From assembly GCA_003248075.1 (NCBI GenBank), contig QJYK01000267.1, forward strand, positions 1-46,430: a stretch of DNA of 46,430 nucleotides. The letters are read 5' to 3'. The first letter of the stretch is position 1. Each line of letters begins with the position of its first letter. Both the position numbers and the translations under genes were made by a program. The DNA is from Gemmatimonadota bacterium (lineage in GTDB: Bacteria; Gemmatimonadota; Gemmatimonadetes; Longimicrobiales; Gaopeijiaceae). This document shows positions 44,636 to 45,547 of the stretch, in pieces. The notes under the pieces were generated by a model. The model made no database searches. It was not told the DNA's origin and was given only the letters and a program-made list of their open reading frames with translations.

Positions 44636-44986
44636 GGGGGCGTCACGGTTTCGACGTGTTTGGTGAACGTGGAGGAGCGTGCCGAGGCCCCGAGCCTCGT
44701 TAACAATCGGGAAACTTCATAGCTGCCAACACTGAACTGGCGCTGGCCGCGTAAGCTTCTTACCGGCCCGTCTCGCGGGTTGCCCGCCCAGGGCGTCCCG
44801 CAGAGACGTCGATAAACTGGGCTGGCCCCCCGGCAGTGCCGCCGGGTCGGGGGGCGAGATGCAAGGCGGCTGGCCGAGGAACCGGTTGATCGCTGGCCAC
44901 CCTCGGTGAGACCTCACAGCGATCTACGCACGTAGTGCCTCTGCCGGACCCATTCGCGGACGCGGGTTCGACTCCCGCCGCCTCCA
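44636..44986 (+). ncRNA. ssrA: transfer-messenger RNA (tmRNA)
   Basis: tmRNA rescues stalled ribosomes and tags their products for proteolysis. The acceptor stem pairs 44636-44642 (GGGGGCG) with 44979-44985 (CGCCTCC) with one G-U pair, discriminator A at 44986, and CCA not encoded. The conserved 5' element CACGGTTTCGAC follows. The T-arm is 44962-44978 with loop TTCGACT. The tag frame reads GCC at 44725 to TAA at 44752-44754, encoding ANTELALAA after the family-type TAGCT; the resume codon GCC is inferred by alignment to the E. coli site, and GCT just before it is in frame. Downstream stretches form the pseudoknot region. One-piece type. Confidence 0.95.
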
Positions 44987-45056
44987 TGCCCTCACGACCA
45001 CAAGGTCGTGGGGGCTTTGTGTTGTCGGGCATCGAGACGGCGGGAGGCGAACCCGC
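44962..45056. repeat. 30-nt inverted repeat of the ssrA 3' end
   Basis: The left arm (44962-44991) is the ssrA T-arm, the 3' acceptor strand, discriminator and 5 downstream bases. The right arm (45027-45056) is its reverse complement with only 3 mismatches in 30. The arms enclose the terminator hairpin. On the minus strand the right arm therefore looks like another tRNA-type T-arm and acceptor end, but the universally conserved T-loop A is C there, and no 5' half of a tRNA is present. Confidence 0.8.
44993..45020 (+). terminator. ssrA terminator
   Basis: A perfect 7-bp stem CACGACC (44993-44999) / GGTCGTG (45004-45010) with loop ACAA is followed by GGGGCTTTGT. The U-run is short, but position 7 nt after the mature tmRNA end makes it the natural intrinsic terminator. 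Confidence 0.65.
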
Positions 45057-45091
45057 CGGGATTCGCGAACAGCGAAGACCGAAAGCGGGGA

Positions 45092-45289
45092 CGAGCCGAT
45101 GGAGCACAGTGCCTTTCGTCAGCCCTCGCGCCGACCGACGAGGCAACGCGACGGCGGCGGAGCCGCCAGAGCGGTACTCCCGCCGCCTCCCGAGCCGATG
45201 GAGCACAGTGCCTTTCGTCAGCCCTTGCGCCGACCGACGAGGCAACGCGACGGCGGCGGAGCCGCCAGAGCGGTACTCCCGCCGCCTCC
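45092..45289 (+). repeat. tandem duplication, two 99-bp units
   Basis: Units 45092-45190 and 45191-45289 are head-to-tail and differ at one base only (C at 45127, T at 45226). Each unit contains a GGCGGC/GCCGCC dyad around 45154-45168 (and 99 bp on) and ends in the ssrA 15-mer. The near identity implies a recent duplication. Frames through it are open on both strands only because of base composition and a period divisible by three; I see no gene. Confidence 0.9.
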
Positions 45290-45293
45290 ACTC

Positions 45294-45331
45294 GGCCCTA
45301 CCTGATGCCCCGGTAGGGCCTTGTTCGTTCT
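45294..45331 (+). terminator. second terminator-like hairpin in the ssrA repeat region
   Basis: A perfect 9-bp stem GGCCCTACC (45294-45302) / GGTAGGGCC (45312-45320) with a 9-nt loop is followed by TTGTTCGTTCT. An outer stem CCACTCGG/CCGAGTGG encloses it. It follows the last copy of the ssrA 3' 15-mer at the same distance that the true terminator follows ssrA, but no complete RNA gene precedes it. Confidence 0.6.
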
Positions 45332-45547
45332 CCGAGTGGGGCGGGCGGGAGGCGAACTCGCACGGACTCGGCGAAGCCGAGGACGTACAGGTGGGTTTGG
45401 ACGGAGCGGCCACGATGGGATCGAAGACCCTCGCGGTCTTCCGCGACAGAGCGAGGTTCGGGCGAAGCCCGACCGAGGCTCACGGCGCCGCACGCCCCCT
45501 CCCATCCGCAGGATCCGAAGGACGGGGGCTCAGTCGTCCGCTTCCTC

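Follow-up and report, generated by a model that had tools for sequence, protein, structure and literature searches.

A structured repeat family in Gemmatimonadota that copies and inverts the 3' end of its host tmRNA or tRNA gene

Described systems at the ends of tRNA and tmRNA genes

Mobile DNA in bacteria lands most often at tRNA and tmRNA genes, and the sequence behind these genes is usually written off as displaced fragments. The rtT repeats behind tyrT of E. coli (Rfam RtT) are tandem and non-coding, and each contains a copy of the tRNA 3' end, a likeness to the units described here; however, our units match no Rfam family, have another structure, occur behind many host genes in many genera, and include an inverted copy of the gene end. 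As in tDNA islands (Islander; the ssrA islands of Dehalococcoides), copies of the gene end lie downstream in the same orientation, the arrays are tandem, tmRNA and tRNA-Ser genes are targeted, and recombinase elements occupy the same junction. Unlike these islands, the units are ~97–270 nt long, hold neither a gene nor an integrase, and have an inverted end copy and covarying hairpin arms; island finders discard candidates below 2 kb or without an integrase (PMC4383910).

Integron attC sites with their cassette arrays, and the folded attP of CTX phage, resemble the units in working only, with inverted-pair ends and a structure-conserved, variable hairpin inside. Like integron arrays, the units stand in one orientation and in tandem behind a single fixed site, and the content between sites varies; unlike integrons, they have no attC core (GTTRRRY/RYYYAAC) at their ends (by eye), these ends being the tRNA or tmRNA 3' end, and they carry no cassette genes. 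REP/BIME palindromes are also short, intergenic, tandem hairpins, but the units are tied to tRNA and tmRNA ends rather than scattered; a REP transposase was rejected as their driver, as Y1 transposases are absent from the genome studied here and present in only 4 of 121 genomes of its family. Because the units work like integrons but fail the sequence test, and resemble islands but have no integrase, we class them as a variant of tDNA-bounded integration modules that belongs to neither group. A search of a literature library found no published description of such repeats.

The locus behind ssrA

The window (the whole stretch of DNA that was analysed, 46,430 nt of contig QJYK01000267.1 from a Gemmatimonadota bacterium) contains an ssrA gene followed by two members of the family (Table 1). 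Their general plan is an end copy (D), a terminator (t), an inverted end copy (I), a hairpin arm, a variable middle, a second hairpin arm, and a further D. A sequence-only reading of the locus had described a module repeated twice; two members are indeed present, although they are larger than claimed, and only unit 1 is complete, with its right half doubled, while the right end of unit 2 is decayed. The doubled half forms a 99-bp tandem repeat, the copies of which are 99% identical and are each closed by a tmRNA-end copy.

The landmarks of that reading were found as described. CCGCCTCCA closes at 44986, the exact end of the tmRNA, and again at 45290; a terminator-type hairpin comes after each end; the 14-mer GGCGGGAGGCGAAC is located at 45039–45052 and 45344–45357, at distances of 53 and 54 nt; and the small hairpins TTCGCGAACAGCGAA and CTCGGCGAAGCCGAG differ in sequence while both are paired. 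However, the 14-mer is not a separate motif. It belongs to an inverted copy of the T-arm of the host gene; read on the minus strand, this T-arm matches the 14-mer with one mismatch. Nor is the terminator hairpin the structured repeat, as it varies freely among units.

Table 1. Coordinates of the features identified behind ssrA in the window.
Feature	Position	Strand	Model score or basis
tmRNA gene (ssrA), tag ANTELALAA	44636..44986	+	
D0, tmRNA 3' end, source of the copies: T-arm GCGGGTTCGACTCCCGC, acceptor strand CGCCTCC, and A	44962..44986	+	
t1, terminator hairpin of tmRNA / unit 1; 12 pairs, T-run	44988..45015	+	
I1, inverted copy of 44962–44991; 30 nt, 90% complementary; contains the 14-mer at 45039–45052	45027..45056	+	
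Unit 1 left arm, CCCGC-CGG-GA-TTCGC..GCGAA-GA-CCG-AAA-GCGGG	45039..45099	+	covariance model R1 72.6 bits, R2 71.3 bits
Apical hairpin of unit 1 left arm, TTCGCGAACAGCGAA	45062..45076	+	
Unit 1 right half, copy 1 of the 99-bp tandem repeat; hairpin GGCGGCGGAGCCGCC, GGA loop	45092..45190	+	
D1, extra tmRNA-end copy, 15/16 identical	45176..45191	+	
Copy 2 of the 99-bp tandem repeat	45191..45289	+	
D2, extra tmRNA-end copy, 16/16 identical	45275..45290	+	
t2, terminator-type hairpin, weak T-run; like the terminator behind a displaced ssrA end in same-genus G001	45294..45320	+	
I2, partly inverted copy of the end preceding t2 (CCGAGT..GGCGGGAGGCGAACTCGC)	45332..45361	+	
Unit 2 left arm	45344..45405	+	covariance model R1 79.7 bits, R2 72.6 bits
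Apical hairpin of unit 2 left arm, CTCGGCGAAGCCGAG, GAA triloop	45367..45381	+	
Unit 2 right-arm-type hairpin, TCGGGC-GAA-GCCCGA	45458..45472	+	by eye, comparison with relatives' units
Unit 2 decayed end copy, CACGGCGCCGCACGCCCCCTCCCA	45481..45504	+	by eye, comparison with relatives' units

The 14-mer occurs three times exactly in the window's own genome, and the third occurrence (C152) lies in a coding-type region and was dismissed as a chance match. Comparison of the 551-bp stretch with its own genome revealed no second copy; thus, the family is visible by structure only. The DNA folding energy of one unit was only moderately below that of shuffled sequences (z −2.4 for one strand and −1.8 for the other), so that energy by itself is no evidence.

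Distribution, host genes, and covariation of the arms

We located tmRNA loci first in 59 relatives and subsequently in 109 genomes of the family, and most of these loci were read. Using covariance models (R1, then R2), the left arm was found in 32 of the 121 family genomes and in 16 of 40 genera, a patchy presence; a genome-wide search of G001, which belongs to the same genus as the window, gave no left-arm match. In a phylum-wide sample of 395 genomes, 24 matched the left-arm model, 22 of them from the window's family. High model scores were limited to Gemmatimonadota, and the named high scorers are all MAGs. An exact 18-mer was present in 60 stretches among 84,980 species genomes, and those outside Gemmatimonadota scored low with the model and were set aside as chance; viral contigs contained 4 exact 18-mers, none of them with an arm. 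The layout seen in the window is beyond chance, since it is found again in the genomes of tens of relatives, where the stems carry compensatory changes. The earlier proposal of a repeat family linked to tRNA-type ends is thus borne out: the models recovered the family across Gemmatimonadota genomes, well beyond the two copies of the window and with compensatory changes, and the matches adjoin tmRNA and tRNA-Ser genes.

Left arms lie almost always behind tmRNA or tRNA-Ser (GCT, GGA, or TGA), with a few weak matches that have no tRNA nearby. Behind the three tRNA-Ser genes the arms are found 15–53 nt downstream, in several genera as well as in the window's own genome, and the direct copies are those of the 3' end of that same tRNA (ATCCCACTCCCTCCG at Ser(GCT), ATCCCACCCCGTCCG at Ser(GGA)). 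Most other tRNAs of the window's genome are without such an end copy; Pro(CGG) and Cys(GCA) carry simpler relatives.

Several further loci were noted in passing. In G000 (contig 310; L080 1980–2971, L251 3600–4470), tRNA-Pro(CGG) is accompanied by two further 3'-end copies, each with its complement before it, which gives a simple hairpin and shows the same principle in its minimal form. At L131, tRNA-Cys(GCA) is followed by a terminator, a partial inverted copy, and, 189 nt on, a displaced end copy with 1 mismatch; right-arm-like sequence lies in between. Contig 1 of G029 (L108 1501–1640) holds a good match to the left half of a unit with no tmRNA adjoining; its terminator is of the type found behind ssrA in G004 and G007, and the tmRNA of G029 is on a different contig. 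Contig 124 of G051 (L073/L083), from a neighbouring family, carries at least 4 ssrA-end copies within 23 kb that bound gene-bearing segments, together with arm-like hairpins of a sequence unlike that of the window's family. In G001 (L054), a sequence about 120–260 nt behind the tmRNA resembles, by eye, a selenocysteine tRNA (TCA).

The units are non-coding and alike in size, with both ends intact and a shared internal plan. The order D, t, I, unit, D was found again in relatives, with two units each in G096, G104, G128, and G133, and with three units in tandem in G005, a genome that consists of a single contig (I at +64, +320, and +536; D at +234, +460, and +702), where neighbouring units are near-identical and yet differ in their terminators. 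Seemingly inverted units in G010 proved to be an artefact of contig orientation; every unit has the same direction.

The left arm consists of an outer stem, a 3–4 nt bulge, 3 pairs, usually a tandem GA/GA, a stem, and a triloop. In its inner helix, 97.6% of cells are paired and 7 of 8 pairs have two-sided changes, and the covariation score of the arm is 0.381, compared to 0.115 ± 0.014 for shuffles and no more than 0.091 for slid controls. The outer stem of the right arm is 94.9% paired and scores 0.471 (shuffles, 0.121 ± 0.045). Having been fitted to the model, alignment A3 is biased towards it; the covariation picture from alignment A1 (MAFFT, 9 sequences) agrees with that from A3. Compensatory stem changes exceed both the shuffled and the slid controls, and the view that structure is kept over sequence holds for both arms. 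In addition, outer stem and D both correspond to the host gene's T-stem, being GCGGG at tmRNA, GTGGG at tRNA-Ser, and GGGGG in G133, the tmRNA of which has the T-stem GGGGG. At L080 2189–2460, the two tandem units behind tRNA-Ser(GCT) have identical flanks and wholly different left-arm apical hairpins, as if the apical hairpin had been exchanged blockwise.

Loops, junctions, and possible explanations

Four explanations were considered and are ranked here as attachment modules, structured RNA, island relics, and decoy landing pads. The one that we favour, at roughly even chances, is that the units are non-autonomous attachment sites, exchanged site-specifically, whose single-stranded form folds up and so exposes a tRNA-end core. 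In the window, two such modules, small and non-coding, would then belong to an array behind ssrA, each reading terminator, inverted tRNA or tmRNA end, left arm, variable middle, right arm, and D. Such modules would be gained, lost, and multiplied as site-specific recombination acts on the host gene's 3' end, and each insertion would spare that gene, supply its own terminator, and add one D. On the single tmRNA-sense strand, the inverted copy is predicted to pair with D, so that a forked hairpin carries a double-stranded tRNA-end core; a tyrosine recombinase supplied in trans might take this core as its attachment site, as with folded attC or the attP of CTX phage.

The hairpin loops bear on the nature of the folded molecule. 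C(GNA)G triloops, in which each of the four bases occurs at N, are present in 42 of 86 predicted unit hairpins (37 units), compared to 0 of 34 in the terminators between units and 8 of 806 in flanking DNA, counts that are not independent because the arms are homologous and their loops inherited. Among perfect triloop stems on the tmRNA-sense strand, units have 47 GNA versus 1 TNC, and the background 27 versus 31. In a selected RNA, GNRA and UNCG tetraloops are expected; the units contain 2 GNRA and 0 UNCG. A GNA loop on a G-C stem forms an extraordinarily stable, nuclease-resistant DNA mini-hairpin (PMC4686876). Taken together, the loops point, indirectly, to single-stranded DNA, and to the tmRNA-sense strand. 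Selection on RNA or DNA structure had been suggested for this locus; the structure is conserved, and loop type and recombinase neighbours favour DNA over RNA.

A structured RNA is possible but unlikely as an explanation. The units would be transcribed with or beyond the tRNA or tmRNA and serve in processing, as a decoy, or in regulation, as a distant analogue of rtT at E. coli tyrT. This would account for the strong covariation of both arms, for the conservation of the unpaired stretches GGTTTGAGCCGAG and CCGCAGATCA across tmRNA and tRNA-Ser units, and for units that are flanked by tRNA-Ser genes inside tRNA operons and have no terminator ahead of them. However, almost all units at ssrA are located past the tmRNA terminator, with a gap of ~15–40 bases, no sigma-70-like promoter was found at these units (a weak test in a GC-rich organism), and the loops are GNA triloops instead of RNA-type tetraloops. 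An Rfam search returned the tmRNA alone above the gathering score; with a lenient cut-off only noise was added, the weak matches to permuted tmRNA reflecting the palindromic ends. The unit as an independent RNA gene was rejected, since no promoter was found and there is no space for one after the preceding terminator.

In relatives, recombinase-bearing elements abut either the tmRNA itself, as in G132 and G016, or the last D of a unit, and take the two as one and the same junction. In G129, the tmRNA, module, and D are followed by a flank identical at 143 of 149 positions to the sequence directly after the tmRNA of G139, and two more pairs of flanks present the same picture (G104 versus G021, 96/135; G002 versus G024, 121/141). 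The G139 flank carries a serine recombinase gene (PF07508, PF00239, PF13408), and the G021 flank a putative tyrosine integrase recognised by eye, for which Pfam matches zinc ribbons only. In G115, an inserted segment begins at the D of a unit and finishes with GGTTCG-D, with another unit next. The exact flank junctions at D, the recombinase-bearing flanks, and the G115 insert thus indicate that D works as an integration junction. The flank comparisons fit moving modules but also elements landing on D in a vertically inherited array. The large serine recombinase gene of G139 (L190) abuts ssrA, as in the Dehalococcoides ssrA islands; serine integrases are said to spare tRNA and tmRNA genes (PMC4383910). 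Integrase elements near tmRNA have arm-type repeats of TGGCACACA that are absent from the modules (by eye), and the idea that a unit is the end of such an element was discarded, as their right ends are without arms.

Somewhat less probable than a structured RNA is that the units are relics of genomic islands at tRNA and tmRNA ends, their insides lost, with tandem slippage in addition, and functionless now. Such islands do leave displaced gene fragments (PMC4383910), and in Dehalococcoides, ssrA islands stand in tandem and have direct repeats of ssrA (PMC3146451); moreover, units adjoin recombinase genes and remnants of these, and the 99-bp repeat is evidently a tandem duplication. Random deletions, however, would not be expected to yield a uniform size (~97–270 nt), intact ends, and a common plan; covariation and the one-strand GNA loops argue that the structure is maintained, and the recombinase-bearing elements have another end, GGTTCG-D.

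In G007 (L239/L360) and G104 (L236), the order is a purH-like gene, tRNA-Ser(TGA), unit, D, and an integron-integrase-like gene (TIGR02249 above cut-off) that starts ~100 bp after D, and a decayed integrase-like frame lies by the tRNA-Ser(TGA) unit of G136 (by eye). TIGR02249 matched above cut-off in 18 of the 121 genomes, and the gene lies beside a unit in just two of them, G007 and G104; at most intI loci no unit is close by, and the window's genome gave no match above cut-off. intI was present in 13 of 41 genomes with units versus 6 of 80 others (Fisher p 0.001, not corrected for kinship, such that phylogeny confounds the comparison). An integron-integrase relative as driver of the candidate recombination is only a lead. 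It is doubtful that the units form an integron-like system of their own, in which cassettes with folded single-strand sites mimicking the tmRNA or tRNA-Ser 3' end would be inserted in tandem behind these genes; the tyrosine recombinase at work might be the integron-integrase relative beside the tRNA-Ser(TGA) units. Very unlikely is a role as decoy landing pads, spare attachment cores kept by the host to divert integrases from tmRNA and tRNA-Ser genes and their terminators: recombinase elements or relics do lie at the unit's D in G129, G137, G104, G002, and G115 and behind tRNA-Ser(TGA) units in G007, G104, and G136, but a gene that serves as tDNA target is normally restored by the element, which leaves little harm to avert, the inverted copy and arms are left unexplained, and the elements of G132 and G016 sit at the tmRNA.

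The attachment-module explanation is favoured by the tandem alternation of I and D, the patchy presence, the exact D junctions, the terminators that vary between near-identical units, the host-tracking stems, the strand bias of GNA loops, and the integron-integrase-like gene behind Ser(TGA) units. Against it, no module was caught moving, neither as a circular form nor as an identical module at two unrelated sites, and the modules encode no recombinase. In palindromic DNA, template switching can also yield paired changes without selection.

Collectively, the family of structured repeats that copy and invert the end of their host tRNA or tmRNA gene is real and exceeds its first description, and the units appear to form a so far undescribed family of DNA recombination modules, at a place where mobile DNA lands preferentially. 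Such units would escape island finders that filter at 2 kb or by integrase. A structured unit that has no integrase and tracks the T-stem of its tRNA offers a direct handle on how short DNA is gained and retained there. If the folded strand is the recombination site, single-strand site-specific recombination would extend past integrons and filamentous phage to tRNA genes.
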